From assembly GCA_902702965.1 (NCBI GenBank), contig CACRXP010000721.1, positions 27,347 to 91,346 of the forward strand: a stretch of DNA of 64,000 nucleotides, given 5' to 3'. Origin of the DNA: Spirometra erinaceieuropaei. Taxonomy: Eukaryota > Platyhelminthes > Cestoda > Diphyllobothriidea > Diphyllobothriidae. How positions within the stretch are numbered: the first letter of the stretch is position 1; the number at the start of each line of letters is the position of its first letter. The notes under the pieces were generated by a model. That model worked only from the letters and a program-made list of their open reading frames with translations, did not search any database and was not told the origin of the DNA. Below are positions 4,089 to 62,987 of this stretch, in pieces. The position numbers were made by a program, and so were the translations under genes.

Positions 4089-5935
4089 TATGATGCCAGT
4101 TCTGTGCGGAATAGAACATAGACTTGATACCAGAGAACACATTTTCTGTGTCAGTCACTCTGTGTACCCCAACTCTTAATCCTTCCGTCCGTGGCTTCGT
4201 ATTCAAGGGTTCAGCCTTCGTCTGGTTTGCGTGTTACTACTGGTCTAGTCCAGAAGGCCCGCATGGGCAGGCCCTCGCCTGTTGCTGACCCCTGGAGGTC
4301 GCGCATAACTCGGCGGCATGCTAATGTCTGTCTTGCAAACGGGCTTCCTATGCGAGGTTCTCCGGCGAATTCGCGGCTCTTTGTCAGGCGTGACTTCCGT
4401 AACTAATGAGCGTCCTCGAAGCTAATATGTTGCAACATCCGTGATATTGTAGGTACTTTAAGGAGTCGCGCTGAAGTTGATAGCATATAAAGACGGATTG
4501 GTTAAAGTCTTTCGATTACGGCTCTTCATTCAACCCTCGCACAAACGCTGTTGTACAACCACTAAACGTTATATCGTCACTGGCGCTACTTGCTTTTATT
4601 TGGTAGTTTAATTTCCTAACTAGAACTGTTCGTTCGATGGTCAACTGTATGTACCAGCGGACTCGGAGAAAAAAACAACGTGCGAAGCACTTTCTGGATG
4701 AGGATTGCGCGCTAACATAACACAAAACCATATATCCGAGCTCGCCGAAATGAAATGTATAAAAATTACTTGAATAAATCCCTGCATAAACTTCATCCTT
4801 GATCTGGAAGATATAACAGTATCTCATGATGACGCCCTATAGAATGTTGTTGCAAGATGCCGATTTTGCACAAGTAGCCCTTAAAATAAAGCAGATTTTT
4901 AGTGAAAAGTGTTGTAATATAGTGATCCCCAGACCAATGTAAAAAGCAACATGAGTCTACATGTGGCATGATATCGTTGGACTATTTAGAAAGGCCTGCA
5001 CCGCAAGATCTGCGAGTTTGGAGAGAGCAGATCGCCTCCATGCATTCATTATATGCAATGCCTCTGTGACATCTTGCAATCTCTTGACGTCAGTCAAACT
5101 TGTGAACCGCAGCCCCGTAACCCGCAACGTCTTTGCAGCTTGTCCAAGACCGTAAGCATAATGTATATGTGATTCTGCTTCTACCCTCTGCAAATTAACG
5201 CGGATTACGTCTCTTGCCACATAAACGTCATAGTAGCCCTGCTTTACCTAAAATGGTGCATGAATTTAACTGGTTATTTGAAAAACATAAAACATTCTGC
5301 AGTAATTTACGAAGATTTTCCAGTTAACACACATAAGTCCATTTGGTTCAGTTTTACGAGCATTTCCAAACAATCGTTTGGGACTGTGTTAAAAGCTCAA
5401 AGTCGGCGCACATTACATCCATTTGTTTCAGGAGGTATTTGAAAAAGCTATATAAGTGATGTGAAGAAGCGATTTTTTAATATATAATGGATATAGTGAC
5501 GCTGGGCACGACAATCTTAGTCACTGACGAATAGCGTTTGTGTGTGTTTATTGTAACTTTGCAAATACTTTCTAACGTGATGTTAAAATGACAGGTGTTC
5601 ATACCGTATTTTGAGCATAAATAGGCGTTGGAAGCAGAGACACGATGAACGGGGGGTTTTTACTGTTGTATGCCTCAAATGCAGGGCATTCAGTGTTATC
5701 TGTGCGCTTTTAGGTACGCCACCTGCAGGTAAGTATCTAGTCAATCAATATAAAGATTTTTATTTGGAATATAAAGAGGTTAGATGCAACGCTCAGTAAA
5801 TGTACGACCTCGTGAGTTAGAAATCTGAATATCGCCGTCCACAAACTCATCACCTGCTTGAGCCAACCGATATGTCCTATAGGTTGCGCGCGAAAACCCA
5901 TCACAAATGCCCTTCGAATTAAATAAATGTACTTA

Positions 5936-6839
5936 TTAGAAGAAGAAAATTGGCTCTCCGGAACAGCTTTATTTAACTGCTGACGTTTCAAAGAGCTGGG
6001 TCTGCTCTTCATTGTCAAAGCGTAAACTGCACCTAATCGATCAGAAATTTAGTTTAAAGTGGCAAGTTGTGTTGGCCGGCCTCATGGTGATCGATTTTTT
6101 TCCCTCTCCTCCCGCTGTGTCGGCTTCTCAGTAGATGGTTGACGGGCGTTTTTTGCCTGTGCGCTTTATGAGTCAACACTCCGTCGAGGGGAGCCGATTG
6201 GACTTTAGTCGGGCGGTCGGTCTGGCGGTTCTTGTTCTTCCTCACCGAGTAAGCTCAGCGTCGGGATATCTCCGTGCTGCCTTCTTAATTCAGGTGTGGT
6301 TGTTTGGTCCTGCGCTCTACGATTGTGATGACGTAAGACTTTGTAAGCTGCAGGAAGGTCCAGATGCCTGTTGATAGAGTGGGCATCGGAGAACCACGCT
6401 TCGAGAGTTAGCCGTTCTGATTTTGTGTTGCCTCGGCCTAAGATGGTAGCCCTCTGGAGGTCAAAAGTATGCCCCGTTCCTCCAACGTGTGTTGCTAGTT
6501 GAGAGTTAGGGTCTAACCTCCGAGTGGCCGATTTATGTTCTTGTAGGCGAGTTTGCAATTGCCGCTCAGTTTCGCCCACATAGTTGCAGTCGCCCTCATT
6601 GCAATTTATTTTGTAGATGACTGCTGAGGTTTCAGCGGGTGGCAATGGGTCTTTAGGTTGCATCAGGCGACGTCGAATTGTTGCTTGTGGTCGATGGGCT
6701 ATGCCTACTCTGGTGGGTTGTAACAGTCGCGAGACCGCTTCAGAGACCCCTTTGAAACCTCAGCAGTTAAATAAAGCTGTTCCGGAGAGCCAATTTTCTT
6801 CTTCTTATAATCTTCCCGGATCTCTAAACTTTTCCAATC
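5936..6839 (-). mobile_element. Penelope-like element with target-site duplication
   Basis: The 904-bp insertion is flanked by TAAATGTACTTA at 5924-5935 and 6840-6851. The second segmental-duplication copy has that 12-mer once (17332-17343) and no insert, so this is a filled/empty pair. The ends carry a 56-bp inverted repeat (5938-5993 and 6750-6805) with one mismatch. Inside is a GIY-YIG endonuclease domain on the minus strand. The reverse transcriptase is absent, so the element is 5'-truncated and not autonomous. It must have inserted after the duplication, or been lost cleanly from copy 2. Confidence 0.88.
6205..6663 (-). CDS. GIY-YIG endonuclease domain of a PLE
   Basis: The open frame gives 152 residues. 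The first 40 contain the GIY-YIG core in its PLE form: VIYKI, then C-x4-C, NYVGETERQLQTRL, QEHK. A later LTLEAW supplies the usual glutamate, and an Asn-Arg-His-Leu-Asp-Leu stretch near residue 115 matches other PLE tails in this window. In PLEs this domain follows the reverse transcriptase and nicks target DNA. It is only the C-terminal third of a PLE protein: no RT lies upstream, so the ATG at 6663 is probably not a natural start. The frame is intact, in keeping with a young insertion. Confidence 0.8.
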   Translation of the reverse strand: MQPKDPLPPAETSAVIYKINCNEGDCNYVGETERQLQTRLQEHKSATRRLDPNSQLATHVGGTGHTFDLQRATILGRGNTKSERLTLEAWFSDAHSINRHLDLPAAYKVLRHHNRRAQDQTTTPELRRQHGDIPTLSLLGEEEQEPPDRPPD

Positions 6840-8407
6840 TAAATGTACTTAGTATAAATGACAAAGAATAAAGTACTTAGGTAAGTTACGCCCCTTGGGT
6901 GTTTCTGGCCGTTTGCCACTGAAAGGTTTGCTTTCCTTAAGGGTCAAATCCAGTTTTCCATGATGCAGGGAATATTTAGCTCACTCGGCATACCTGCCAG
7001 AGCCTATCTTTGCTCTGTGCTTTGCAAACTTGCTATTGGCGCTTATGGTGGGTGTCTGCTTGGCCTCGGGATTGACCATGAAGGCTGTGGCTATATGCGA
7101 AACCACCGTTCCCCAGCCTTCTGGCAGCAGATGCAGTTTGATACGAAACTAACAGTCAATACTGCGTTTAGTCCAGATGGGTCTATACGGCTCTTCTGCC
7201 GACTGCCCCTCTTTTTGATGGAGTTTACATTTCTGCAGATTACAACACGTATCAATGGCGTAGGCATGCCTGTCTGTACAAAGTGCCTGGTATGATTGAT
7301 GGTGTAGTGTGCGTGACCTTTGCACAGTATCTCTGCATATGTCATTCATTAATCGGTTACAATTTCACTACCCAGAATAACCATTTTTAAATTACTGCCC
7401 TCAGCGTCTTCCATGATCCGTTATTGATCTGCTCATGTAAGGCCTCCTTTTAAATGTTTTGCATTTCAAATACCCAATCCTGCCGCTCTTAATTCCCAAA
7501 ATTGTGTTTTCGTCTGCTTATTAGAGTTTTGTCTACCGCAAATGCGAGACATTTAAAATTGTCCATGTCAGGACGGCATAACGCAAGCGGGGTAGGACTT
7601 TAATGCCAAGGATATGTTTGGGCGGAAGAGATAATCCGCAAATAATAGTTTATTGCCAATGTGGCCACATTTAGAATTAAAACTATGGCAGTAATGTGTG
7701 CTATACGTGGGTGGAGAATCGGTAGACACCCTATATGCGCGACGGTTGTCCTTTTCGTATACGGTCACGCCGAACTCTGCAGGAGGCCTGGAGTAAAAAG
7801 ACCAAAGGACGCAGGCAAACCGACAAAACGGAGACCCGCGCCAATCCGCCTAGGATGCTAATGAGAAGCATGATGAATCATAATCCGCCTAGGATAAATC
7901 TTTCGCCTTTTACTAAAGATTTACGTGTTGGGGTGCAATACGATGAATCTATATGGTCATATTTGCAGCGCCCCGTTCTCGGGGCGGTTAAAGTGAACAA
8001 GAAAGTCACCCTGACAGGGCTTCTGCGCGTACAATCCCAGACATATTGAGAACGTAATCACAGCTACTGAAATCGTACTGCCTTAACCTGGAAGTGCAGG
8101 AAAGGATAGCTAACTGGCAGGGCTACCAACTACCAACCCGCCGAGTATTGTCTACCACAAATGCGAGACATTTATATTTGTCCATGTAGTTAACGAAACG
8201 TCAGCTGTAGATATATGCCAGGCCACCACGTATGTAAATCATTATGTAGAAGGTTTAAAGATTAGCGTCTGATTATTCTATTCTCGCCTGCCTGCACATC
8301 GACGCCGGAGTCACCCAGTTTTCTGTTCTCCATCAGGTGAACGGCGGAGTAAACATGACGACATATGGAACGACATGCGGTGACTGGGGCTTCGTTTCTT
8401 CCCACTC

Positions 8408-9560: not shown

Positions 9561-9680
9561 CTTACACAGAATATTTGTTCAGCCACTACCTACATAAAAC
9601 AGCATCAAAATCAATGACGCCAAGACGACCTCTTTGCACGACATGTTTTTTCAACAAAATACTAATGGCATACTTCGGAA

Positions 9681-10790: not shown

Positions 10791-10852
10791 CTCTCTTTCT
10801 AAAAACGCCGACACTTTTGCTGATTTTCTGACATATTTCCGATGTAATCCTG

Positions 10853-12239: not shown

Positions 12240-12590
12240 CGGGCGTGGGTACGACTGGCTCAGGACGGTTAATAAGCCAGAAATGACCATTCTACTCTCG
12301 CTTGTCTTCGTCGGTAATAAAATACTGTCTATATCATGCGCCGCCGTGCGGCTGCTTATTGAGCTCTAAAAAGAGCCCGTAAGACAAAACGGAACGAGTG
12401 AGTTCCTTAATATCGATCGGCGAACGCCCTTTACCATTGTTTATTCCCAATCGGAAACCGACAGGAAAACAGACACGTGGCTCAGTGATTAGAGGCGTGG
12501 ACTTCTAACTGACGGGTCGCGAGTTCCAGCTTTAGATGTTCCACACCGTGGGGTTGGGTAGGGCTGGCTGACGACGCTTAGGCCTCGAGT
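12240..12590 (+). mobile_element. tRNA-derived SINE copies
   Basis: At about 12475-12540 a tRNA-like head reads GTGGCTCAGTGATTAGAGGC (A-box type), followed by GGTCGCGAGTTCC (B-box type). The upstream 12240-12420 stretch is a SINE body that recurs at 45650-45985 (TATCATGCGCCGCCGTG against TATCATCCGCCGCTGTG). So a body and the head of a second copy lie together, directly against the left edge of the segmental duplication. Confidence 0.6.
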
Positions 12591-12859
12591 AAAACATACA
12601 TTTGTTCACAGTACGTGTGGAGTTGTTTAATCTTAGGAGGAAAAGGTAACGGTTGACAATAATGAACGTTTTATTCGGCCCTGTTTCCTACCCATCCGAG
12701 GACAATGTCACTGTAGGATGAGGCAATAAAAATAACCAGGCAGGTATTTTGATAGAAAGTCAAAACAACGCCTCCACCCATCGAAATTCATTTGCATAGG
12801 CTAGATTACCTGGGCTTTTCTTTTTAAGTTACAAAATTGGCAAGGAAACCGAACAGAAC

Positions 12860-13060
12860 AGAATGCTCCAGGAAGGACCGCAGCCTATTGGGGAAGTCCT
12901 CCGGTAATTATCAACTTTAGTGAAAGTGTGGAAATAGGGTGATTTCATGAGGTAATACCAGTAACAGATATCAAAGCGGAAAGCATTGCTCTGCAGTGCG
13001 ATTTTGTAGAAAAATGCAATTCCTATATTGATAATCTCAAAACAACAATGCTTCTTAAGT
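12860..13060 (+). pseudogene. Relic of coding segment D, copy 2
   Basis: The reading ...QEGPQPIGEVL, then AFPEVIPVTDIKAESIALQC, matches segment D at 43781-43530, but a stop after GEVLR and a frame change separate the two halves. Function not recognised. Confidence 0.5.
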
Positions 13061-14744
13061 AATGATGTCGCGTCCAATTTCGGTCAGAAACTCGAATTGC
13101 ACTGGAAGTGTTCTAAAGAGCTACGACTGGTATCGAAGAAAGTGGGAGATCACCAATAATGCACCACCAACGCATTGATTGTTTTTTTATATCAGGGATA
13201 ATTACGGATATAAATTCAATACAACTCTTCGCTCGGCAAAAATCTTAACTTCATGGTAATGAGAAATCAAGCCCATTGTAGTATGCACTGACAGCAACTT
13301 GTCCTATCACATATGTGGCTTTTGATCATTGCGCATTAAATTTTCCGACAATTGCCGAAGCAGAGGTCCGCCTGCTGGCAGTCTGAAGTCTTAATAGAAT
13401 GCCGCTTATAAGGACTTTCCTCCAGCACTCCCTCAGCTGAAGTAATTAGACTTAGCTGTCTTGATGATGGTTAGCTTTAAAGTGAACGTCTCAGTAGTAA
13501 TCCGAATTTTTACGCATGGTACAACGCTGTCTCGACTGTGGCAGGATGACTATAGTTTGTTGTTGTTGTTGTTTTTGCTTGTTTTGCTGCTATGTTAGGT
13601 CAGGTCAGGAAGCCCGAGCTGACAGACGTATTAACTTCACGTCAAATCCCACTGTCAGCCATGACTTCCAAAGCGTCTGTTGTCTGTATCGTCTGCATGC
13701 AGGTATGCATTTACACAGCACGTGCACAAGACTCCGGTTTCATGCGAAATCGGACTAAGTCCACGCACACCTAGCCGCTGGGCACTTAGCAATCTCTCAC
13801 ATTATCCTAGACGTGCTTTTTCCCTTAAGCACTCAAAGCAGAGTACAGGCGACGAAAACAGTTTTGAGTTGTGGATTTATAATATCCACACTTCATTGCC
13901 CTCACAGCAAAATCTATCTCTAACCCCAGGGGATAATCCACACCGTCAATGTTCGCTGTCACAGGTCCCCATTTGATTACAAACACCATATTGTTATCAA
14001 TTATATCATCGTTTATGACCCTAACTGTTTTGTCTCTGATGATGAGTTCGAGCAGGCATACGAAAAGTCAGGCTAATAAAGATCTTTTCAAGGCTACCGT
14101 GTCTCCTTTGTCAAACCTGGCCAATGTTCTTCATCACTAAAACCTGAAGTAGTTGAATTATGACCAAAAGATTTCAGGGCATTTCTTGGTAAATAGGAAC
14201 AATGCCACTTTTAACCGCGTAAGTTGTTTGACAAGAACGTTTCGTTAAAGTCAAGAATATTACTCACCAGTACGTGCGAAATACTACATTGTGATTCATG
14301 ATTACTACCTAACCTATGATGAGGAGTGGTGCAGGCAACGATATAAAAACCATTGCGTGCGAGAGGCTTGTATAAGAAAAAAACTCCGACAGTTCTTCAG
14401 ACAGTTAGATGTTTGTGCTCGCAGGCTTGTAGATAAGAAAACGTCGCCTAATGCCAAAAACCGACTTTTGTAATACTCAGTTAGTATGACATGGAAATTG
14501 GCAACTCCAATTTAGGTAAGTGACGTTTTGCCAAATTCCAAGTATGGTACATAACACGTCTGCCTCAACCGTGAGCCTGATAGAAGTCTACCCAAAATTT
14601 GACATAAAGCGACTCGGATTTCGATGGTAGGTGGTGCTGCGGAGTCCGTTTAAATGCTCCTAACACGCAGCTTGGACCAAAGTTTGTGCACACAGTTTTA
14701 AGAGCTTATTTGATAAGATATTATGATGGATAGGCAACTTCATG

Positions 14745-15240
14745 GTCTAATTATTATAAATAATATTGATCTTGCGAAAGATGTAAACGTCAATGAATTG
14801 GCACATGCCTTCGACACAAGCTCATCCAGCGAGTGCAATGCATCTTGCCTTCATTTCTTTTGTATATTTCGAAGTTTTCTACAGACACTCTGGGCAATGC
14901 CGTTAAAGATATGACCTTTGGAATGCAATAGCGCATGTACTGCCAGTGTTCTGAAGGTATGTGGGAAGTCCGCAATCGCGTCCATATATCACATGAGTAA
15001 ATCAACCTCATCCATTCACAGTTCCACAGACAGGAGCATGCTTATTCCAGAATTTATACCCGAATTCGTACGAGCAGAGCACAACGTTTTTTGCTGAAAT
15101 TCGTATTTGACACATACTGTGCTTCCGGAACATCTAAACTATTTATTTCCTGTCAAAATAGTTTCAAGAACACATTGTTTAAAGCTGATCGGTATTTAAT
15201 CCAATGTGATTAGTCGTTGTGTGGGAAATTCACGGGTGGG
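14745..15240 (-). pseudogene. Relic of a divergent family gene, copy 2
   Basis: This is the counterpart of 3880-3145. The exon-3-like part at about 14990-14790 is shortened by a 36-bp deletion at its start and by the 172-bp deletion beyond its end. The exon-2-like part (about 15240-15050) has stops. Not functional. Confidence 0.55.
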
Positions 15241-15325
15241 CAGCCGGACCGACAGTCCATCTGCCACAGCGAGATGGTTGCGTAATACCAACTTAATTGC
15301 TAAAAGTTAGCTAGTAGTATATACC

Positions 15326-15496
15326 GGGAATTACATTTACTTTCAAGACAGAGGTTGATGGACAACTCCCATTTCTGGATGACCTTTACGTCAAAAAACC
15401 GACGAATCACTTCATAGATCAGTTTGTAGCAAAGAGTTGTATCCAGAGGTAACTCTTCACTTAGAGCGTAAGCAGCCTGTTATATCTCCAGATAGT
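15326..15496 (+). mobile_element. PLE reverse-transcriptase fragment, copy 2
   Basis: Same fragment and insertion point as 3919-4088, with one extra frame change (GACCTTTACG in place of GACCTTGTACG). Confidence 0.7.
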
Positions 15497-16364
15497 ATGG
15501 CGCCAGTTCTGTGCGGAATAGAACATAGACTTGATACCAGAGAACAAATTTTCTATGTCAGTCACTCTGTGTACCCCAGCTCTTAATCCTTCCGTCCGTG
15601 GCTTCGTATTCAAGGGTTCAGCCTTCGTCTGGTTTGCGTGTTACTACCGGTCTAGTTTAGAGGGCCCGCATGGGCAGGCCCTCGCGTGTTGCTGACCCCT
15701 GGAGGTCGCGCATAACTCGGCGGCATGCTAATGTCTGTCTTGCAAACGGGCTTCCTATGCGAGGTTCTCCGGCGAATTTGCGGCTCTTTGTCAGGCGTGA
15801 CTTCCGTAACTAATGAGCGTCCTCGAAGCTTATATGTTGCAACATCCGTGATATTGTAGGTACTTTAAGGAGTCGCGCTGAATTTGATAGCATATAAAGA
15901 CGGATTGGTTAAAGTCTTTCGATTTCGGCTCTTCATTCAACCCTCGCACAAACGCTGTTGTACAGCCACTAAACGTTATATCGTCACTGTCGCTACTTGC
16001 TTTTATTTGGTCGTTTAAATTTCCTAACTAGAACTGTTCGTTCGATGGTCAACTGCATGTACCAGCGGACTCTGAGAAAAAAACAACGTGCGAAGCACTT
16101 TCTGGATGAGGATTGCGCGCTAACATAACACAAAACCATATATCCGAGCTAGCCGAAATGAAATGTATAAAAATTGCTTGAATAAATCCCTGCATAAACT
16201 TCATCCTTGATCTGGAAGATATAACAGTATCTCATGATGACGCCCTAAAGAATGTTGTTGCAAGATGCCGATTTTGCACAAGTAGCCCGTAAAATAACGC
16301 AGATTTTTAGTGAAAAGTGTTGTAATATAGTGATCCCCAGACCAATGTAAAAAGCAACATGAGT

Positions 16365-19300
16365 CTACATGTGGCATGATATCGTTGGACTATTTAGAAA
16401 GGCCTGCACCGCAAGATCTGCGAGTTTGGAGAGAGCAGATCGCCTCCATGCATTCATTATATGCAATGCCTCTGTGACATCTTGCAATCTCTTGACGTCA
16501 GTCAAACTCGTGAACCGCAGCCCCGTAGCCCGCAACGTCTTTGCAGCTTGTCCAAGACCGTAAGCATAATGTATATGTGCTTCTGCTTCTACCCTCTGCA
16601 AATTAACGCGGATTACGTCTCTTGCCACATAAACGTCATAGTAGTCCTGCTTTACCTAAAATGGTACACAAATTTAGCTGGTTATTTGAAAAACATAAAA
16701 CATTCTGCAGTAATTTACGAAGATTTTCCAGTTAACACACATAAGTCCATTTGGTTCAGTTTTACGAGCATTTCCAAATAATCGTTTGGAACTGTGTTAA
16801 AAGCTCAAAGTCGGCGCAAATTACATCCATTTGTTTCAGGAGGTATTTGAAAAAGCTATATAAGTGATGGGAAGAAGCGATTTTTTAATATATAATGGAT
16901 CTAGTGACGCTGGGCACGTCAATCGTAGTCACTGACGAATAGCGTTTGCGTGTGTTTATTGTAACTTTGCAAATACTTTCTAACGTGATTTTAAAATGAC
17001 AGGTGTTCATACCGTATTTTGAGCATAAATAGGCGCTGGAAGCAGAGACACGATGAACGGAGGGTTTCTACTGTTGTATGCCTCAAATGCAGGGCATTCA
17101 GTGTTACCTGTGCGCTTTTAGGTACACCACCTGCAGGTAAGTATCTAGCCAACCAATATAAAATTTTTTATTTGGAATATAAAGAGGTTAGATGCAACGC
17201 TCAGTAAATGTACGACCTCGTGAGTTAGAAATCTGAATATCGCCGTCCACAAACTCATCACCTGCTTGAGCCAACCGATATGTCCTATAGGTTGCGAGCG
17301 AAAACCCATCACAAATGCCCTTCGAATTAAATAAATGTACTTAGTATAAATGACAAATAATGAAGTATTCAGGTAAGTTACGCCCCTTGGGTGTTTCTGG
17401 CCGTTTGCCACTGAAAGGTTTGCTTTCCTTAAGGGTCGAATCCAGTTTTCCATGATGCAGGGAATATTTAGCTCACTCGGCATACCTGCCAGAGCCTATC
17501 TTTGCTCTGTGCTTTGCAAACTTGCTATTGGCGCTTATGGTGGGTGTCTGCTTGGCCTCGGGATTGACCATGAAGGCTGTGGCTATATGCGAAACCACCG
17601 TTCCCCAGCCTTCTGGCAGCAGATGCAGTTTGATACGAAACTAACAGTCAATACTGCGTTTAATCCAGATGGGTCTATACGGCTCTTCTGCCGACAGCCC
17701 CTCTTTTTGATGGAGTTTACATTTCTGCAGATTACAACACGTATCAAAGGCGGCGGCATGCCTGTCTGTTTTCGGATGTACAAGGTGTCTGGGATGATTG
17801 ATGGTGTAGTGTGCGTGACCTTTGCGCAGTATCTCTGCATATGTTATTCATTAATCGGTTACATTTACACTACCCAGAATAACCATTTTTAAATAACTGC
17901 CCTCAGCGTCTTCCACGATCCGTTCTTGATCTGCTCATGTAACGCCTCCTTTTAAATGTTTTTACATTTCAAATACCCAATGCTGCCGCTCTTAATACCC
18001 AAAATTGTGTTTTCTTCTGCTTATTAGAGTTTTGTCTACCGCAAATGCGAGACATTTAAAATTGTCCATGTCAGGACGGCATACCGCAAGCGGGGTAAGA
18101 CTTTAATTCCAAGAATATGTTTAGGCGGAAGAGATAATCCGCAAATAATAGTTTATTGCCAATGTGGCCACATTAAGAATTAAAACTATGGCTGTAGTTG
18201 TGTGCTATACGTGGGTGGAAAATCGGTAGACACCCTATCTGCGCGACGGTTGTCCTTTTCGTACACGGTCACGCCGGACTCTGCAGGAGGTCTGGAGTAA
18301 AAAGACCAAAGGACGCAGGCAAACCGACAAAGCGGAGACCCGCGCCAATCCGCCTAGGATGCTAATGAGAAGCATGGTGAATCATAATCCGCCTAGGATA
18401 AATCTTTCGCCCTTTACTAAAGCTTTACGTGTTGGGGTGCAATAAGATGAATCTATATGGGCATTTTTGCAGCGCTTCGTTCTCAGGGCGGTTAAAGTGA
18501 ACAAGAAAGTCACCCTGACAGGGCTTCTGCGCGTGCAATCCCAGACATATTGAGAACGTAATCACAGCTACTGAAATCGTACTGCCTTAAACTGGAAGTG
18601 CAGGAAAGGATCGCTAACTGGCAGGGCTACCAACTACCAACCCGCCGAGTATTGTCTACCACAAATGCGAGACATTTAGATTTGTCCACGTAGTTAACGA
18701 AACGTCAGCTGTAGATATATGCCAGGCCACCACGTATGTAAATCATTATGTAGAAGGTTCAAAGTTTAGCGTCTGATTATTCTATTCTCGCCTGCCTGCA
18801 CATCGTCGCCGGAGTCGCCCAGTTGTCTGTTCTCCATCAGGTGAACGACGGAGTATACATGACGACATATGGAACGACATGCGGTGACTGGGGCTTCGTT
18901 TCTTCCCACTGTCGATGCGTACTGCCTAACAGTCAATTTCGGATACAAAAATCAAGAAGACACTCAGTATCTCCCGTAAACATAACTTGCCGTTGCATAG
19001 TGGATAATAATTTTGCTGAGCAGTCTTCAGGCGTAAAACGTGCATGGGAATGTAAACCCATCGATGGGCGCCCTTAGTATTTGCTGATTCTGCTACCCAC
19101 CAATGAGTTAATAGGCGAAGTGATTGCCGGTTGTCCTAGACACTATATCGAGTGTTATTTTAGCTGTCTTTTTGACGAAACATATCCATTTATAATGTAC
19201 AGCAGCGTTTTTAGAACATTTAACATTCTATACCCCAATGAATTAAAATTTAGCGGTTACCATTTTGAATATTTTTTAATATATATATATTTATATATAT

Positions 19301-19804: not shown

Positions 19805-19858
<54 letters not shown>

Positions 19859-38950: not shown

Positions 38951-40403
38951 TCATGTGATGCAAGAGAAAGCCAATGCAATCGCGGAGGCCTCAGATGCAA
39001 GAACGTCCAGTGTACGCAGTAAATTTTGTCTCCATGGTGTCACCCCCTTCCAACGTTGTCTCCGGGCATTCTCGACAATGTTAATAAAAACAAATCCGTT
39101 AAAATGCAATAGATCGCGTTCTGCTAGTGCGCTCGATGCGAGCAGGAAGTCTGCAATCGCGTCCACATTTTTCACGTGGAAGTTAAGTTTGTCAACCCTT
39201 GCGGGCCGAGTGGCCATTGCTATGAGCGGGTTCATCTGAAACTATAACATGGGAAAGAAATGTAAATAGCACACGGGCATTCGATAACATTTCAATAAAT
39301 ACTCCGCGGAGGCGGAAGCCGTAATGCTTAACTTGCCTAATTAAAAAGACACTGGTAATAATACGTCAGAATACAAGTCGAAATCTCGGTTATAGTAGTA
39401 CGGCGTTTTGTGCCGAGTTTCGTGAGTGGAGGTAGGTGCGATTAGTGGACAGCCTAGCTATGTGATTAGCATCAGCATTTCTTTTCAAATTAACAGTTAA
39501 ATTTATCTATAACAGTGCCGTTTACAAGCAAGCTGTATGTATGTGCGAAATAAAACTGATAAGAAATGTAATTTCACCCAAATTATTCACGAAATTATAC
39601 GAGTGGTTTACATTAAGTAATCATTTTCATTCATATGCGTAAAGTCGGCGTTTTAAACGGGTCATTTACGCGAAGTCAAAGTAGACACTATTGCTTGTCA
39701 GGATGCAAATATTTAAAGTAATTGTGTTTACTGTATAAAGCAGTCGAATGTGCAGCAGCGGAAATGTTACATTGCACGCCAATTTGAAGGCGTGTGCTTC
39801 AACCGTTTGGGACACAGTGAAGCTTGTAGTGGTATTATCACCGTTCTGCCTGTGTACACTAAACACTGAATTCCGACTGAGTCGATCCAGCAAGATGTTG
39901 GCAAGCCGCAAATTCTCCCCGAAGAGCGGACACGGCGTTGGCGCTAAAATGCCAAAATATGGACACGTTTAGTTAATAGCAAAGCTTTTCCAAATATTGC
40001 GTACAGAGAAGTAAGTATAAATTACAAACTGCGTGAATTGCAGTCCTTTGGGCAATTTCAATCATGAATGTCCAGTGCGCCGAATTTCACATTTAATATG
40101 TCAGAAGACATATCTGACATCTTTTTGTCCTTAATACGACAAGCAATATGTGTTTCAACATCAAAAATGTGGATTCTACAATAAAGTTTTCGAACTCCAG
40201 ATGCCTTTTTTCCAAGTATTTTAGGCAACTAGAAAAATTGCAAAGCCTACTTAGAGACACATGTAAAAACGTCGGACAGTACCTGAAGCGACGTGAACCA
40301 CCGTAAAATTTAACTTACATTCGCTGTCTTCATACTTGCAGGCTGTGTGTAAAAACCAGTACATAAGGAGTGCAAATAGTGTGAGAGATCCCAGTGAACA
40401 CAT
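38951..40403 (-). CDS. Secreted three-exon family protein, divergent subfamily, complete gene (193 aa)
   Basis: Exons: 40403-40319 (85 nt, donor GTAAGT), 39943-39732 (212 nt, acceptor CATTTTAG, donor GTAAAC), 39235-38951 (285 nt, acceptor GTTTCAG, stop after SCIT). Phases 1 and 0 match the other family genes. Exon 1 encodes MCSLGSLTLFALLMYWFLHT plus ACKYEDSE, a good signal peptide. Exon 2 keeps PTPCPLFGEN and the CNVTF glycosylation site but has lost the HQC cysteine. Exon 3 has NVDAIADF and TPWRQNLLRTLDVLASEAS, equivalent to the WRRSALS helix elsewhere. Introns are short (375 and 496 nt) and free of transposons, unlike its relatives. A TATA-like CATAAAAGTC lies about 50 nt before the ATG. 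Function unknown. Confidence 0.78.
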
Positions 40404-49461: not shown

Positions 49462-52400
49462 ATGTCGGGCAAAGAAGTCGTCTTGACGTCGATGGTTTTG
49501 ATGCTGTTGTATGCAGGCAGTGGCATCGCAAATGTTCTGTGTAAGTATTTTTTAAACAACGTAGCATGTGCTTGTTTATATTTGCTTTCTCTTTAGAAAT
49601 TAACGGACCGAGTTTTTCATACCTAGCATCAACAATTTCATGTTCAATGTATCTGCCATAAATCTGCAATGAGTAAAGTAGAAATCGTCCATGTATGTTG
49701 TTGAAAATCTATGAAATGGGAATCTCCGTCCTTGCTGCGTGACTTATGGGATGCCGTGTTGTTTGAATCAGCATAACGAAAAGTGGGCCTGCTCTTCACG
49801 CTGTGTTTAATCAAGCAGGAAACGGTTGTTCAAACTAATTGATATCCTATCGGTTTTAGCTATAAGGCGGCCTCCGTCTTCTCCAGTAGACAAGAAAAGA
49901 CACATCTGCAACAATATCACAATAAAAATAGTTTACTGTATGTCAGCGCACTAACTAGTACATGTTCGAAGATGTGTGTATGTAAAAAAAACCTACATAA
50001 CATTTGTAAGTTGTGTGATCATATGTGATTAGTCACGGGCTTTTGAATGTTTAAGACTGCGAATGTAACTGGTAAGTAGGAAGCGTGATAAAGGCCTACT
50101 TTGATCATGTATGAATGTGCACTTCAGGGGCAAACAAAGTCGGTGGGCAGGGAGCGCCCTTCTGCAACCACCCTGGTACTGAAGAAAAACTTGCGTTTGC
50201 CAATGCCAGCTGTCCCCGATCATAATTTACTGATTAGAGCACACATTTGCGGGCATATTATCCTGACGGAGAAATCGCTTACAACTAAAAGACAGACCAG
50301 GCTACGAATAGAGCTCAAATTTAATATAGAACATCTTTGTACCTGCCGGTAGAAAAGGAGGACAATCTAGTTAACGGATCATGGGGCAATGGTCATGTTA
50401 ATTTGTCCATTGCTGCTATCCCTTCTTGCAGATGTAGCTTGCAAATGTAAAGGTCAACTAATGCGCAATCCGTCACTTTTCAGTGGCTTCTGGTAGAATT
50501 CCCCTAATTATGGTAGGCAGGCGTATTGGTTTGATCACAGTAGGCCAAATCCACAACGAGGTGCACACAGGAAAAAAGTTGGTCTGTGGATCCAGACTGT
50601 CAGGAAAAACGATCAAGTAATTATCGAACTAATTTTTGACACCGAGTGCGAGTTCGAGATCGATATCGAGGGGTGATTATGGGTTCTCTCAATCCGAGGT
50701 TTTACTTCTAAACTAACCGTTTGCCTTGAGAACTTCATGTTGGCATAATCTTGTCTTATTCTCACCACATGTTGTGTTGAGGGATCTTGTGTTACGTGAA
50801 ACCCCCAGCCTGCCATCTCTGTCTAAACGAACTCATATTGTTGGAAACTATATGCTGAATATTTTATGTAGACGCGTGGTTATGCTAAGTATCTGTTTTC
50901 CCTTTATGAGTTGAAAGCGGTCCGCATTGTCCGGGATCAGAGAATGGATTCCACTTGTACGAATTTGTTCAGAAACGATTCGAGGATTCCTGCGCATTCA
51001 CGGCTTCCATGTCATATAACCTGGAAGGCAAAACGCACCTTCTTATGACAACATCAGCCAATCCAGAAGTGCATCAATGCTTCTATGTTGATCGCGTTCG
51101 GGAAGCAAAGTACTGCAAAATAACATGCAACCTGACCTTCTCTAATGTCGAATTTGGACTACATCATATGGTACGCATATTACAATTTAAGCAATTTCAT
51201 GAACACTGAAGAATGCTGTATAAAGCGGACTTAAAATTTCTAAGGATCTGCAAGATATACTCAACAGTCGGTGTTACTAAAAGTTAATATATGTGTATGC
51301 AGAAGCTAGGTTAACAAGATTAAGCCAAGTTTCTATGGTGGGGCATGCTCGCCTACATTGAAAGGAAATACGCTATGCCTAAAATGTGTCCAAGTCATGT
51401 GGAACTTGCACAGAAGGAAAGCTGTTTTGATGCCATCTGACATAAGATTTACTCAGGGATATCTAATTGCATTTCGTAAAGCTGCTCGGCCCATCAGAGC
51501 CTCGGTAGGAGAGACGCCATCAGGCAACGCCGAGTTCGGCGTTATCCAGTAGGAAAATAGGAACGCCTGGACTATCTCGTACGTGATGCCCTCCCCACGA
51601 GCATTAAAGAGGGTTCCACAAAAATTTTGACAAAACAGTCCGTCTGGTAGTTTGAGTTATGATAGTAGGACAGGAAGCAATATTCCGAAATTTATTCTGG
51701 CAACATAAGTCTTCAAACATCGACGAAGTAATCCGAGAGCCAATATCTGAAACCAAGACTTCTTGTAAGCCATGCTGGCTAAAGATGCTTCGTAGAAAGG
51801 CCATGGTGGCAGGTGTGGTCGCTACATTCGGCTGAGCAATTTGAGGCCACATAGGGTAGGCGTTCACCAAGATTAGGTAGGCGAATCCGTTAAGTGAACC
51901 AGCGAAGTCGATAGGCACGTGTGCCTACGGCTTCTCCGGTGGTTGGTAGGGTATTGGCGACTGACGAGGCTGCATATTTGCAGCCTGCTAAGATCGAGGC
52001 CAGTGTGCAACCTGGTGGCCGATGTTGCCGTAGAAACCTGACCAGCAATGCTCGGAGGAAGAAGAGCGGGCGAATATCGCTAGCGAAAGCAGTGGTCGAC
52101 CAGCAGGTCTGCCCGTATGTGATGGCCTGACGGAGGTCAGGATCCTGTTCAATCGCGCTGATGTCAGATGTCCGCGGTTGTGGCAGAGATGCCCTGTATG
52201 GCATCTGTGAGGCGACGGCGCACACCGTCCTCAATCTAAATAGCGGCAATCACAATGTCTTCCTCAGGTTCCTGCAAATTGCAGATGAGGCGAGAAAGGG
52301 TGTCAGCAAGACCAAAGTCGGTAGTAGGGCAATAGAGGATGTCGAATCCTGTAACTAAGAAGAATGGTTACACATCGCTAAGGTCGGCCGACTGAACAGA

Positions 52401-55400
52401 CGAGAATGTCCTTCTACGAACTAAAGATTAACGGCGATGGTTTGTGATCCGCCAACAACAAGAAATGGCGACCGTACAACAGTTTGTGGAACTTCTCTGC
52501 GGCAAACACGAGGGCTAGATTCTCTCTGTCTATTTTCTCGTATTTCTTCTCCGCAGGGGTTAGCGTTCAAGATGCATACATGCTCGACGTTCAGACCTAT
52601 CATAAAAAGTATGTAAAATGACGATCACAACTCGATGGTTGGAATCCTTTGCAGCAACATCTATTGGCAGCGTCAGGTCATTGTGCTTGGGCAGCAGATC
52701 TGACCTAAGGCGACTTAGGGACGACCTCGATCTGCAAATACGCACCAGTGGGATCCAACTTGACAAAGCGAGTGGCCTCAATCAGCAGGGTAAAATGATT
52801 AGCCGGAAACGGCAGTGCATAACAGTTCAGCATCAGCGCGTCATTTGGGCAGGTGTATTAGTCAGCACAAATGCGGATTGAGTCATTGGACTCCTTAACC
52901 ACAATGATTACAGCGGCCCAATCAGAGTAGGATACAGGAACTAGAACTCACAGTTCCTTCGGACGATTCCGCTAAGCTTCGACAAGTGGTAGCGCTGCAT
53001 CTGCTTCAAGACGGCGTACTCGTCGGCCATTGCAGTTGGCAACTGCCATACGATGTACGTAACCAGGCTTTTTAATATTAAAGATATCAAAATAAGCGTA
53101 TAGTCATTTGTCCTGTTTGTATAGCAGCCGACTTTCAGGACGGATAACAAGGATGCACAGTTTCAGGAAATGAGATAATTGCTTCCTTTGAAACCATTAC
53201 CCTCGTTAATCGATTCCAGTAAATGTGCCAATACAATGCACAAACGAACACCTCCAGTCTGTGCGAGCTGTAGGCCGGAAGGACCGAGTGCATGAAACGC
53301 TGTACGCAGTTTTCGGCCCATCAGAGCCTCGGTAGGAGAGACGGCATTAGGCAACGCTAGGTTCGGTGTTGTCCTGTAGGATAACAGGAACGCCTGGACT
53401 TTTTTGTCCGTAATCCCCTCCCCAAGAGCTTTCAGGTGGGCTCACCCAAAAATGTTGAAAAAACGATCCGTCTGACCGTTTAAATAATGAAAGTAGGACA
53501 GGAAGCGAAAATGCCGAATGTTATGCCGGCGGCAAAAATCTTCAAATATCGCCGGAGTAAACAGAGAGCCAAGATCTGTCCGCGGAAGTGACAGAGATAC
53601 ACTGTATGGCATCTGAGAGGAGACTGCGCACATAGTCCTCAATCGAATTAGTCGCAATCACAATGTCTTTCTCAGGTTCCTGCTAATTGCAGATGAGGCG
53701 AGAAAGGGCGTCAGCCTGACCAAAGTCGGGAAAACGGCAAAAGAGACTGTCGAAACTGTGACTAGGAAGAATGGTTATTTATCGCTGAATTCGTCTGGCT
53801 TAAAAGACAGGAATGTCCTTCTTCGAACCTAAGATTGACGGCGGTGGTTTGTGATCTTCCAAGTACACGAATTCGCGACCGCACAACAGCTTATGGAACT
53901 TCATGGCGGCCAAAACGAGGGCTAAATTATCGTTGTCTATTTGCCCATATTTCTTCTCCGCAGGGGTTAGCATTTAACATTTATACGTGATCGACGTTCA
54001 GACCTATCAGAAAAAGTATGTTAGATGACGAACACAACTCCATGCTTGGAGGAATTTGCAGCAACAACTATTGGCAGCAGATCTGAACTTAGCATCGAAT
54101 TTAGCTGGGCGAAGGCATTTTCGTATTCGGACCACCGGCAACAAGGAGCATCCTTCTGCAACAGACGGTTAAGTGGGGTCCGTACTTTATTCAACGATTG
54201 CAGAAGGACCTTTAGTAGCTAATCCGAACACGAAACGAACGAAGGTGCGATACATTCTTCAACGCAGGCATCGTTGCTTGGCCCGAAGGTTTTCAGGATC
54301 TGGATGACAACCGGGGACAACAGAAAACGAATCCGAGATGGTCTCTGGAGTCGTGGAAGAATTCGAACTTGTCGGCACGCAGGCCTGAAACCATATTCAT
54401 TGACGCGTTTGAGTACTGCACACACTCGGTCTTTCAGCTTGCCAGAGGAGCGACCCAGGATCCTGATGTCGTTCGGGTACCCAGCTGTGCCAGGGATGTG
54501 GGCGGGCATTGCGTTAATCGTTTGCTGGAGCTGTGCCGGTGGGCTCTTGACACCAATAGGCAGCCTTGTATATTGGAACAGACCGCGGGGAATGTTAATG
54601 GTCAACAATTCGCGCGACTCTGGGACGACCTCGATCTGCTGGTACCCATAAGCGATATCCAGCTTGTCAAGGCGAGTGGCCACATTCATCAGGGTGAAAA
54701 TATCAGCTTGAAACGGCAGTGCATAATAGTTCAGCATCAGCGTGTCATTAAGCCGGTGTAGAAGAAAGCACGAATGCGGATTCAGACATTGGATTCCCCA
54801 ACCACAATGGTTACAGCGGGCCAATCAGAGTAGGATGCAGGAACTAGAACTCTCAGTTCCTTCAGATGATTCAGTTAAGTCTCGACAAGTGGTAGAGCTG
54901 CATGAGCCTCAAGACGGTATACTCGTCAGTCATTGCAGTTGGCAACTGCCATGCGATGTACCTACCAAGGCTTTCAACTAGCAACGATACCAAAAGTAGC
55001 GTATAGGCACTTGTCCTGTTTGTATAGCAGTGAGCGATTTCTGCATGATAATGAGCAATTATCTTTTTGACTGTATCCAATTATTCTATCTGTACAAGAG
55101 GTCACTTTCAACTCATATATGATAACTTAAAAAATGTTTTTTTTCTCTTTTTACTTCATGCTTTTGTTTAAATATTATAAGCTTTAAATGAATATAATGT
55201 GTTCTGCATTTTGAGCTCTCTATAAAATTTAATTGAATGCTTTAGTTTAACGTGAAAACGCAACCAAGCATGACTACATGCGTTCACTTGGATGCTTTTA
55301 TAAAATTATGCGGTGTTTTATATTCGTCAAACGAATATTTTATTCCCTGTTCCATTAAAGTCACACGAGAGTCTCCTTCGCGTGTATATGCCCAAGGACT

Positions 55401-55651
55401 CGATCTACGTTTACTTGCAGAACGTTGTCGCAGTAACTGAAATTCATTATGTTTACGGCTCCGGACAAGCTCGGGGAACTGTGCGATCTACGGGACTACA
55501 ATTCACCAGCTTGAATGATGTCCAGACCTTGCAGCAAACAATGGAAGCACTGCATATAATGAACATGTGGAGACAATCTGCCTTGTCCATGCTTGAAAAC
55601 CTTGCGACGCAGGCCTTTTTAAATACTCCAGCAGTATCGTGCATTCTATGA
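49462..55651 (+). CDS. Secreted three-exon family protein, complete gene 2 (209 aa)
   Basis: Exons: 49462-49540 (79 nt, donor GTAAGT), 50911-51170 (260 nt, acceptor CCTTTATGAG, donor GTACGC) and 55361-55651 (291 nt, acceptor CATTAAAG, stop after SCIL). Phases 1 and 0 give a continuous 209-residue frame. Exon 1 encodes the leader MSGKEVVLTSMVLMLLYAGS. Exon 2 has HCPGSENGF, VQKRFEDS, VHQCFYVD and CNLTF, plus two extra cysteines. Exon 3 has VYMPKD, TGLQFTSLNDV and NMWRQSALSMLENL; 49 of 82 aligned residues match the gene at 60782. Intron 2 is almost wholly gypsy sequence on the opposite strand. The exon-2 acceptor at 50918 would break phase, so I chose 50911. Family not recognised. Confidence 0.75.
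51440..53150 (-). mobile_element. Ty3/gypsy pol relic 1
   Basis: Minus-strand order from high to low coordinates: RT start (52940-52790), RNase H (52700-52420; PIDVAAKDSN, then TPAEKKYEKIDRE in a shifted frame), integrase (52250-51480; a His-Cys zinc-like stretch, then PIDFAGSLNGF and SQHGLQEVLVSD). Several frameshifts and an internal RT deletion are present. No LTRs or gag were seen. Confidence 0.8.
53158..55080 (-). mobile_element. Ty3/gypsy pol relic 2
   Basis: This is a second copy of the same pol region in the same orientation, directly next to the first. It holds RT (54824-54219), a short RNase H part (54060-53820) and integrase pieces (53657-53158). The boundary words CGGCCCATCAGAGCCTCGGT (51488 and 53318) and CTTGTCCTGTTTGTATAGCA-type ends (about 53110 and 55015) occur in both. 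Tandem arrangement; no LTRs seen. Confidence 0.8.
54219..54824 (-). pseudogene. Ty3/gypsy reverse transcriptase, damaged active site
   Basis: A 201-codon frame covers the RT fingers and palm: LNDTLMLNYYALPF, RLDKLDIAYGYQQIEV, ELLTINIPRGLFQYTRLPIG, then GYPNDIRILG where the family has a Y-x-D-D box. The first catalytic Asp is present (KLDIA), but the second site reads Pro-Asn-Asp, so the enzyme is dead. The N-terminus and the RNase H junction are frameshifted. Confidence 0.85.
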
Positions 55652-60535: not shown

Positions 60536-62987
60536 TCGCAAGGTTTTCGAAAATTGACAAAGCAGATCGTCTCCATGTATTCATTTTGCGCAGTGATTCC
60601 ATGACATCTTGCAATCTCTTGATGTCAGTCAAGCTGGTGAACTGCAGCCCTGTAGCTCGCAGGGTTCCTCGAGTTTGTCCGGCGCCGTAAAAGTAGTGTA
60701 CTTCTGCTTCTGCAACAACATTCTGCAGATCAACGTACATTAGATCTCTCGTCAGATACACGCGATGGATACCCGACTTTGTCTGGAATAGACAAAGACC
60801 AATCTGCATAAGTTAGGACAAGTATTCAATCGTACACCGCTGTATCTATGTCGCTTTAATCAGTTTAGAATCTGGATGCGTATAATGACCATTTACACTG
60901 CCAACTATCCCGAAAATTGCATGTAATGCGAAAGAAAACTACTTATTAATTATGTCATTGTTAAGTTAATGCCGGTCAGCGTTATATATACCATAATTAA
61001 AATCATCATCGAATAAGTTTGGAGAAAATACCTATCGAAACTCAACGTGTGGATACTTTTGACCCAAACTTGAGGAAAATAGCTTATTGCGGCCAGCTAT
61101 GAAATGTCCATGAAAAGTCCAGCAAACGCTATCACCGCGTGCTGAACACCGCGTGAAACTCGTCAAACAAACTAGCGATATTGTTAGCATTATCAAATAA
61201 TCACGCGCTCCTTGTACCCATTTCGATAGTAGGGATAAATATCCTTGCAATACACATAAATATGAAACAGTGGTCATTTTGTCCAGTTCTCTCCCTTTTA
61301 TTCGGGCCCGATTTCTTCAATTCGCCGACGTTATTGTTTATGCTGTTTGCGAGCTTGTTGAACTCATTACCATTCCATAGCAGATCAGATCCCTTGTCCA
61401 TCAAGTAATTGCTCTGTTTGGTCCAGTTCGCAACTGTATCAATTTCGTTTGCCGTGTGCTGCCTGTCGACGGCCAAGGTAACAATAACGCTCACTTTTGT
61501 ATCCTCATATGTCCTTGATGTTATGCTGTAGAAATCGTCATTTGACCTTTTTGCTGAAGTAGTAAAGTCGCCACTTGCTGCTGCAAGACATTTTCGAAAT
61601 TCCCACCGGCCTCACACATCTGCAACGGCGAGTCGAAGGATGCAATAAAGTCCTCAGTTTAACCATCTCTTGTGCCGAACTTTACGTATTAGAACAGAAC
61701 CGTCACTTGTTACAGAGTGAGACGACGACAGGAAAATTTCGCAGACGAGGACTCTTTCAAGGCAGAAGAAGTCCATATCAGCAGGAACAGACCTCCCACG
61801 ACCATGGTGATGTAAATCGACATATATACGAAACATCAGCCTGCACACAGCACTTTTCATGAAATCGCTTGCTCTTTTTTTGCATTTTCCCATGGGTGAT
61901 TTAGAACTTAATAATTAATCTAGACTGCGGATCTGCATGAACAATGGCATGTATTTATCTAAATCTAGAAGAAACAGGCAAACTTCTTTGAGAACGAAAT
62001 GACACTTATCCAGTTAAATTTCAGCACGTAGTCGAAGCACATTGTTTGACTAATGCGTCACCTACAGAGACAGAGGCGAGATTGACTCCGCAGTTTTGCT
62101 TTGATTCATTCCATCACAAGCGAATCATGGGATTTTTCAGACAACACCTTATATATCTAGACATGCAAATCTGTTCTTAAAGTACGCAAGCTGTATGCGT
62201 AAAGTAGTCGCCGATTTCTATTTAGGGTTATTTCAGCAGTTTCTCGAAGGCGCGTATCAATTCTTAATGTATGGGTGATTCTGATGTGATTTTTATCCTT
62301 AATACTTACATGCGCTAGGATGTCCACTTTAATACATATAAGTGCATATGCTGAAGGAATATGCGAGCTCACAACTGCCAGCGTAAAGGCTTTACGGCAT
62401 AGGGTTAGGGTTTGGGCGTACAAAGCTTCGATGACAAAAATTAATATCGAAATTCGGGATCATTAAGACTTGAGTTTGTCTAAGACCGGTTGACGAATGT
62501 AAATAGGTTAATACTGGACATCTCAGTCTTCGTCTGCATCAACGTCTATAGTTTAAGGGGACTGCATACACTTTAGGAAAAAAAAGAACCGTCAACATTA
62601 ATTTTATCATTTTTTTAAAATTTAGTTTCTATGCTAACTTTATTTCATAATAACATCAAAGGACAATGAGATCATGGCAACGCTTAAGTTAATAAATGCT
62701 TTTCGATTCGTATAATAAGACTAATATGCATACCATGCGAAAAATATCAAACGCTACACTAGAGAACGTCAGGTTGCATGACACTATGAAGTACTTTGCC
62801 TCGAAAACGTGATCAACATAGAAGCATTGGTGTACTTGTGGGTTGGCTGATGTCCTCATGAAAAGTTGAGTCCTGCTTTTTCGGGCGTACAGCATGGAGG
62901 CGCTGAATTCATGAGAATGTTCGAATCGTTTCTCAACGAATTGGTGCGGGTAGAATCCTCTGTCTGAACCCGGGCATCGCAGATCTA
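60452..62987 (-). CDS. Secreted three-exon family protein, exons 2 and 3 (incomplete)
   Basis: Exon 2 is 62987-62734 (254 nt, acceptor ATCAAAG, donor GTATGC). It contains LRCPGSDRGF, VEKRFEHS, VHQCFYVDHVFEAKYF and SCNLTFSS. Exon 3 starts at 60782 (acceptor CTATTCCAG) and reads THE-family VYLTRD, TGLQFTSLTDIKRLQ and NTWRRSALSIFENLA before running into the N gap at 60535; the frame is open throughout. Intron phases agree with the complete genes. No exon 1 with a leader and donor was found up to 64000; it may lie outside the window. The upstream stretch MAVYIVCIK joined to exon 2 is open but is probably intron. Function unknown. Confidence 0.72.
60783..62733 (-). other. Intron 2 of the incomplete family gene; nothing recognised
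   Basis: Frames at 61494-61201 (minus) and 61575-61862 (plus) are open but have no motif I recognise and no paralogous support. A short telomere-like word (GGGTTAGGGTTTGGGCGTAC) is at 62402-62421, resembling one at 34481-34501. Confidence 0.4.

Follow-up and report, generated by a model that had tools for sequence, protein, structure and literature searches.

Three-exon genes for probably secreted small proteins form a very large and apparently unnamed family in the tapeworm Spirometra erinaceieuropaei

Background

What kind of gene family is represented by four loci, alike in plan and strongly diverged in sequence, that lie close together in the genome of a Spirometra tapeworm, whose larvae are long-lived in very different hosts, people included? 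The stretch of DNA analysed here, referred to as the window, comprises 64,000 nt of Spirometra erinaceieuropaei contig CACRXP010000721.1 (positions 27,347 to 91,346 of the forward strand). A first-pass annotation, made from the letters alone, had proposed that these loci form a cluster encoding small secreted, Cys-rich glycoproteins that are under selection and carry no recognised domain, and had raised a possible host-interface role.

Gene plan of the window loci

The four loci, here termed A to D, share one three-exon plan, in which a signal-peptide-like exon 1 ends in phase 1, exon 2 ends in phase 0, and a last exon of 285-291 nt closes with S-C-x-x-stop; the internal junctions are AG acceptors and GT donors. 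Exact models of loci A, B and C, with predicted proteins of 193-209 residues, were obtained where the first-pass annotation had placed them. The plan holds in full at these three loci, and at the partial locus D wherever neither a gap nor the window edge cuts it. Locus A, on the minus strand, has its signal-peptide-like exon 1 at 22519..22597, exon 2 at 20248..20501, with C-P near its start and C-N-L-T-F near its phase-0 end, and exon 3 at 16365..16655 (291 nt, SCHM-stop). Locus B, also on the minus strand, comprises a signal-peptide-like exon 1 with Cys22 (40319..40403), an exon 2 that lacks the middle cysteine and has a 14-residue deletion (39732..39943), and an exon 3 of 285 nt ending in SCIT-stop (38951..39235). 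Locus C lies on the plus strand, with a signal-peptide-like exon 1 at 49462..49540, exon 2 at 50911..51170 and exon 3 at 55361..55651 (291 nt, SCIL-stop). At locus D, on the minus strand, exon 2 (62734..62984) was recognised by its sequence match to the A and C exons, exon 3 (60536..60782) is cut by an N gap at 60452-60535, and no exon 1 was found in the ~ 1 kb of window left beyond exon 2. An open stretch at 61204-61611 in intron 2 of locus D was considered as a distant exon 3 and rejected, its score being under those of the best shuffles.

Among the fixed features proposed earlier, C-P, C-N-L-T-F (in exon 2 of locus A) and S-C-x-x-stop were recovered, while the tryptophan motif of exon 3 had to be rewritten as W-R-x-x-[AL]-L, and FTSL-D is absent from locus B.

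The matches listed in protein searches were only unnamed S. erinaceieuropaei proteins, including at least eight predicted, partly chimaeric ones in nr (P0001-P0008). P0002 is identical to locus C over the join of exons 2 and 3, and P0005 matches exon 3 of locus D at 81 of 82 residues. These deposited models differ from ours in being gene-prediction fragments or chimaeras. Splicing in the worm along these lines is thus suggested by sequence and by gene predictions, P0002, which supports the splicing of locus C, being itself one of the latter. The least certain junction is that between exons 2 and 3 of locus A, because it spans 3.6 kb with an N gap in intron 2, and because the deposited model P0003 joins an exon 2 nearly identical to that of locus A (41/42) to a different exon 3.

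Relatedness of the four loci

The exons of loci A, C and D match one another with tblastn E values of 2e-29 to 6e-36, and their introns do not align. Locus B is distant from these three, at 24-28% identity. Nevertheless, a profile built without B found its exon 2 with an E value of 1.6e-4 among 1306 frames, and when A-type and B-type profiles were compared, the score was 35.3 for exon 2 (best of 100 shuffles, 18.9) and 30.3 for exon 3 (best of 100 shuffles, 21.0). The weakest link among the four loci is exon 3 of B, which the A-type exon-3 profile alone reaches at only E 0.14. The similarity of the four loci is not due to chance, and they constitute one family, B included.

Family size in the genome

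What had been taken for a cluster of four belongs to a very large family, of which the rest of the genome holds more than 150 copies. The search found at least 165 exon-2 places, 148 without stops and 17 with stops (150 places plus 15 added; 20 of the 150 and the 15 were not fetched), and at least 176 exon-3 places. The figure for exon 2 is an undercount, because the locus A query missed B's own exon 2. Exons 2 and 3 occur in the right order, on the same strand and within 12 kb of each other in 109 pairs, with both members open in 97; a control with exon 3 on the opposite strand gave 18 pairs under a looser rule. Twenty divergent 10-kb regions were examined individually, and exon 2 was present in all 20 and an exon-3 match in 19. 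Of these 19 matches, 16 had a single frame with a phase-0 AG upstream, and the C-x-x-stop end was likewise seen in 16.

The plan is also conserved at the level of the exon boundary. Among 114 full-length exon 2s, a GTA or GTG donor lies exactly three codons past the domain in 111, and an AG lies 11 nt before it in 84. These sequences fall into 101, 88, 72 and 36 clusters at 98, 95, 90 and 80% nucleotide identity, respectively.

Such numbers could also be reached by an old family of which only a few members still work, the remainder being mostly pseudogene relics. Orphan and broken family pieces do occur in the window, and 27 of the 176 exon-3 places contain stops. However, the proportion of stop-free exon 2s given above and the low pN/pS between paralogues, described below, speak against this reading, which we regard as very improbable.

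Exon 1, cysteines and glycosylation sites

The family proteins are probably secreted, judging from exon 1. It is hydrophobic at loci A, B and C, and the hydropathy profile picks out the N-terminus alone at A and C; B has an equally hydrophobic C-terminal stretch. Upstream searches of 20 further loci gave a signal-peptide-like candidate for exon 1 in 19, as against 4 of 20 in an antisense control. In 18 of the 19 candidates the last cysteine is residue 22, and 16 share a length of 28 codons; neither feature was demanded by the search, and some of the loci are close copies of one another.

The description of exon 2 as Cys-rich did not hold up, since there are only three family cysteines, of which B has two. 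These cysteines occupy positions 1, 51 and 67 and are present in 100, 99 and 100% of the 114 full-length exon 2s, respectively, two of them being retained in 114/114. Whole proteins have 4-6 cysteines (15 sampled members). An N-glycosylation site follows the last fixed cysteine in 75 of the 114, which gives the glycoprotein claim a partly conserved site. Both disulfides and glycans can be predicted from these conserved residues.

Selection

Loci A, C and D are under purifying selection, in agreement with the first-pass annotation. For these loci, omega is about 0.3 (0.28-0.37), and the bootstrap upper limit of pN/pS is 0.56-0.63 over exons 2 and 3, so that dN/dS is well below 1; dN/dS pairs with B are largely saturated. 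When random change was simulated up to the distance between A and C, the frame stayed free of stops in only 4 of 2000 runs. Over the wider family, disjoint pairs of exon 2s, sorted into four classes of identity, gave pN/pS values of 0.34-0.47, a count from which 36 of the 114 exon-2 rows were dropped because the row in the alignment differed from the frame segment. Some close pairs are near 1, with pN/pS values of 0.92 and 1.24 resting on 4-5 changes each. All four classes show purifying selection, and nothing points to the rapid change that an antigenic arms race would be expected to leave. This suggests that an expansion of this kind can be dominated by purifying selection instead of fast change, which bears on how such families evolve.

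The same result is relevant to a reading in which the expansion serves the worm itself, the proteins being secreted for an internal job in the vitellaria or eggshell, the reproductive tract, the tegument matrix or cell-cell recognition. A role in reproduction, structure or development accounts equally well for purifying selection across the classes, and the exon-1 and cysteine patterns indicate only that the proteins are extracellular. The expansion is very large and clustered, however, and expansions of that sort are more typical of interface families. We consider an internal job somewhat unlikely.

Searches for known relatives

The earlier statement that no known domain is present is borne out by our searches. 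No Pfam match above the curated score was obtained with seven window frames and four spliced or partial proteins, and nothing credible was found with 20 exon 3s, where the best stray match had an E value of 0.018, or with 23 exon 2s, where it had one of 0.13. Profile searches of PDB sequences gave either no match or best E values of 0.36 and 2, none of them credible. AlphaFold2 models, made before the deep alignments from the genome search were available, were too poor for naming a fold (pLDDT 34.6 for P0001 with 15 sequences; 48.9 for exon 2 with 8 sequences). In the low-confidence exon-2 models, strands come after a single helix, which recalls a cystatin-like fold, but profile scores lay within those of shuffled controls (7.9 against five cystatins, shuffles 8.0-16.2; 12.2 in a further comparison, shuffles 6.0-18.3), and the best Foldseek match, at E 0.41, was disregarded. 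The cystatin reading of exon 2 was thus rejected.

Could the exons belong to a transposable element or an endogenous virus that has spread as repeats? Transposon pieces are present in the window, and the deposited models P0005 and P0008 run on into other sequence, which we take to be transposon-like. Against this, the family exons have no credible Pfam match, to a transposon protein or otherwise, and no viral or prokaryotic relative emerged from one query each, P0002 being the one used against viral contigs. Exon 2 of locus C likewise had no relative in phage records, and PHROGs yielded one stray match at E 0.073. In addition, the genes follow a spliced plan of three exons whose phases are fixed, copies that have diverged to about 30% are still open, and exons align where introns do not. 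We regard this as the least probable of the readings considered.

Antigen B, Kunitz inhibitors and CAP proteins are expanded secreted families of other cestodes, and all three have Pfam models. Like the present family, they are multigene families of small secreted proteins, but in the members scanned here Pfam detected none of the three. The family is apparently unnamed.

A closer comparison is offered by Sparganum proliferum, a close relative, for which the published account describes expanded families of unknown function, in five orthogroups whose products mostly have signal peptides (PMC8166898). One of these, the plerocercoid-immunosuppressive factor (P-ISF, OG0000083), is termed there a cysteine-rich glycoprotein (PMC8166898). 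The present family might be P-ISF or another of these expanded secreted orthogroups, among which are OG0003096, OG0010117, OG0011363 and OG0011373, an identity that would be compatible with the explanation we favour below. However, the cysteine count of the 15 sampled members is low for a protein called cysteine-rich. No protein called P-ISF was among the matches listed, where length limits and a word filter could hide it. We judge this identity to be distinctly unlikely.

Possible role

On balance, we favour the explanation that the window cluster is part of a giant multigene family of exported proteins that probably meet varied host molecules. Exon 1 would encode a signal peptide, with Cys22 directly after it in most sampled members. 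Exon 2 would add a module built on three fixed cysteines, an N-glycosylation site usually coming after the third, and exon 3 another module with a fixed cysteine just ahead of the stop. The products would most likely be exported, disulfide-bonded and often glycosylated, and either leave the worm or be deposited on its surface, different paralogues probably meeting different host molecules or host species. A role at the host is plausible, since the worm is a parasite, the expansion is very large, and the lineage has other secreted families that have expanded.

The family grows through segmental as well as tandem duplication. With introns free to diverge, paralogues may exchange entire exon-3 modules, as the single deposited model P0003 hints. 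A bolder version of the favoured explanation, which we hold to be rather unlikely as a whole, is that the exons encode an undescribed fold or domain pair, present in well above 100 genes in one tapeworm lineage as an exported, diversified and host-acting set, with the terminal module reshuffled through intron recombination and odd-cysteine members possibly dimerising via the spare cysteine.

Given its size and lack of domain annotation, the family may be one of the largest sets of uncharacterised genes that the worm has, and may provide a ready candidate list of secreted antigens, diagnostics and host-acting proteins.

Duplication and other family pieces in the window

Two copies of a segmental duplication unit, at 967..8406 and 12574..18910, are 92-96% alike over aligned blocks. 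The second carries exon 3 of locus A, and the first carries its counterpart A' (4957..5247, minus strand), an intact frame with 93 of 96 residues the same and with no exon 2 partner found within the window. Exon 3 did not prove significantly more conserved between A and A' than the surroundings (4/291 versus 61/2099 differences, P 0.18). Around exon 3 of locus A, contigs C721, C415, C266 and C1164 are 94.7-96.9% alike; haplotypes and duplications are not separable at this level, because the window's own two copies match each other just as closely (95.7%).

The duplication unit also contains a B-type exon-3 copy, E (3340..3561, minus strand), which lacks the S-C-x-x-stop end, and its duplicate E' (14782..15015, minus strand), a pseudo-exon with in-frame stops. 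An orphan exon-1 copy resembling that of locus C, with an in-frame stop, lies at 9567..9644 (minus strand), and weak remnants lie at 32852-33084 and 41648-41698. Neither these pieces nor A' had been described in the first-pass annotation. The A' piece, read as 5247-4957, is the source of the start coordinate originally given for the cluster.

Gene models and kinship of the four loci

Each locus model was rebuilt from the DNA sequence, and the first-pass annotation, which had described four loci with a common three-exon plan (a signal-peptide-like exon 1, an exon 2 with cysteines and a last exon 3 ending in S-C-x-x-stop), was borne out, details aside. Loci A and B, on the minus strand, and C, on the plus strand, encode open predicted proteins of 207, 193 and 209 residues, respectively; their junctions are AG/GT, and exon 1 ends in phase 1 and exon 2 in phase 0. 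For locus D, on the minus strand, exon 2 is present together with the greater part of exon 3, which ends inside an N gap; no exon 1 was found for it within the window. Among the details, the label "Cys-rich" for exon 2 needs correction, the W-R motif of exon 3 is present in the form W-R-x-x-[AL]-L rather than exactly as proposed, and the exon 3 motif FTSL-D, described as a fixed feature, is absent from B. In A and C the N-terminus stands out by its hydropathy; in B it does not, the C-terminus being just as hydrophobic.

The exons of A, C and D match one another at tblastn E values of 2e-29 to 6e-36. At the DNA level (blastn, E 1e-5, at least 120 nt), the alignments among these three loci stop no farther than about 30 bases from the exons; none of the introns aligns. 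B is a remote member that nevertheless belongs to the family, since its profile-to-profile scores against the A-type exons (35.3 for exon 2 and 30.3 for exon 3) lie above the best of 100 column shuffles (18.9 and 21.0). A profile built without B recovers its exon 2 at E 1.6e-4, and its exon 3 at E 0.14 only.

Two features of the introns can be mentioned here. Long AT dinucleotide runs occur at about 19808-19853 and 19280-19330, the first of them close to the gap of Ns at 19742-19800 that interrupts the second intron of locus A, so that the assembly there deserves less trust. In intron 2 of locus D, an open stretch on the minus strand (61204-61611) has no Pfam match; as a distant exon 3 it was rejected by test, and it is perhaps an exon of another gene.

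Extent of the family and conservation of its plan

We are almost certain that the loci belong to a giant protein-coding family. The window (C721:27347-91346) comes from an assembly of 758.7 Mb in 1932 contigs, which has 63 places matching A exon 3, at least 150 matching A exon 2 (150 of 283 candidates scored), 114 matching B exon 3 and 82 matching a divergent exon 2. The unions, which are lower bounds owing to the limit on scored candidates but may include uncollapsed haplotypes, are at least 165 exon-2 places over 39 contigs, not counting B's own (148 without stops), and at least 176 exon-3 places (149 without stops). The cluster of four described at first stands for the window, and the extent of the family was understated. 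A same-strand exon 3 lies within 12 kb downstream, with no intervening exon 2, for 109 of the 165 exon 2s, and 97 of these pairs are open in both exons (median distance 1243); under a looser control rule lacking the no-other-exon condition, 18 had an exon 3 on the opposite strand. A neighbouring exon 2 lies within 50 kb in 119 of the 165 cases. The exon 3s of A and B recur on contigs C415, C266, C277 and C1164 (regions L003-L006), where the DNA around A exon 3 (around position 1501-1788 of these regions) is 85-97% alike; either the clusters were duplicated or the contigs are haplotypes left uncollapsed.

The A exon 2 search gave 150 exon 2s, of which 130 were fetched; 114 full-length copies from 112 sources were compared. 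The donor lies exactly 3 codons past the domain in 111 of them and an AG lies 11 nt ahead of it in 84; cysteines 1, 51 and 67 are kept in 100, 99 and 100%, and 75 carry N-x-S/T after the third cysteine. We also fetched 20 regions of 10 kb around divergent exon 2s. Exon 2 was present in all 20 and an exon-3 match in 19, the remaining region, L017, having one placed by the B exon 3 search at the extreme end of the fetched stretch. In 16 of the 19, exon 3 is a single frame with an upstream phase-0 AG. The other three are L023, where two frames share the match; L018, with a partial match that lacks an acceptor; and L009, with no phase-0 AG within the open frame. The C-x-x-stop end is found in 16 of the 19 (not in L021, L023 or L028).

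When the 20 loci were scanned by a simple rule (an exon that opens with ATG, is hydrophobic and ends at a phase-1 donor), 19 had an upstream exon 1 candidate, compared with 4 of 20 for the antisense strand. Features that were not search criteria recur among these candidates: 12 of 19 begin M-S or M-T, the last Cys is residue 22 in 18, and 16 have a length of 28 codons. The 19 are not independent cases, since some of the loci closely duplicate one another. Cysteines were counted in 15 loci over the cores of exons 2 and 3 and the end of exon 1, where they number 4 to 6. Eight of these (L010, L011, L012, L013, L015, L020, L022 and L025) have five in these regions, signal peptide excluded, a number that would leave one cysteine unpaired or make dimers possible.

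Selection on the reading frames

Selection on the frames, proposed from their openness, was upheld by codon comparison, with omega values of 0.28 (A-C), 0.37 (A-D) and 0.28 (C-D). Random change simulated to the A-C distance introduced a mean of 6.4 stops, and zero stops in 4 of 2000 runs. Among disjoint exon-2 pairs, taken from 78 usable rows of the 114, pN/pS was 0.34 at 95-99.5% identity (10 pairs), 0.38 at 90-95% (9 pairs), 0.47 at 80-90% (23 pairs) and 0.46 at 70-80% (15 pairs). Single close pairs are more variable; for example, A-group exon 3 pairs, with few changes each, range from 0.23 to 1.24.

Relationship to known proteins and possible function

The view that the family has no recognised domain was sustained by HMM searches. 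Pfam gave no match for seven window frames and four spliced or partial proteins; 20 exon 3s and 23 exon 2s drew nothing but strays, with best E values of 0.018 and 0.13, respectively; PDB sequences gave either no match or best E values of 0.36 and 2. Cystatin was considered and rejected, its profile score being within the shuffled range. Structure models were poor (pLDDT 34.6 and 48.9), and Foldseek returned nothing usable with the latter. Transposon pieces in the window (6205-6759, 47952-48963, 44176-44646 and 54219-54824), comprising a GIY-YIG endonuclease, presumably Penelope-like, a two-frame Tc-type transposase and weak reverse-transcriptase matches, lie apart from the family exons.

Searches of deposited proteins, partly with about 8000 candidates scored, gave at least 8 distinct matches, all unnamed and all labelled Spirometra erinaceieuropaei, and it is on these matches that the assignment of the window to Spirometra and to this species rests; such searches detect only relatives with common short exact words, so a lack of the family in other tapeworms cannot be deduced. 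The 138-residue prediction P0002 shows no difference from locus C across the junction of exons 2 and 3, and P0005 matches D exon 3 at 81 of 82 residues. No relative of P0002 was found in viral and prokaryotic contigs, nor of C exon 2 in phage records. Two public predictions, P0005 and P0008, fuse the family to foreign sequence, which in P0008 includes zinc-finger domains and in P0005 a piece recurring at 53766-53545.

For Sparganum proliferum, PMC8166898 reports secreted families that have expanded and whose function is unknown, from one of which (OG0000083) a gene was cloned and named plerocercoid-immunosuppressive factor (P-ISF), and 12 lineage-specific expansions, mostly of unknown function, in S. 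erinaceieuropaei. PMC4265353 states that nearly half of the gene families are species-unique, the largest 20 of them having no significant hit to annotated proteins. No such family is described in the portions seen of PMC4262225, PMC12249497 and PMC10481575, and a look-up of six terms in PMC13104597 gave no match. Our search, which covered the text of papers, found none on this family, and an unnamed orthogroup number for it may well exist. The products are very probably exported. By inference they could act on the host, a reading to which we give even chances; its main rival is a reproductive or structural role, and purifying selection does not decide between the two.

Growth of the family

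The window contains a duplication (967-8406 against 12574-18910, 92-96% alike over aligned blocks), one end of which lies inside the second intron of locus A. An older, inverted counterpart to parts of 909-12576 is present at 41299-50356. In P0003, an A-like exon 2 (41 of 42 residues) is joined to a C-like exon 3 (78% identical to C, 56% to A), which reflects an exchange of exon 3 or else a misjoin in an older fragmented assembly. The older assembly has an N50 of 4,647 bases according to PMC4265353, and P0003 presumably derives from it. Inside the duplicated block, 7870-7987 matches U5 spliceosomal RNA at 45.4 bits (gathering threshold 40).
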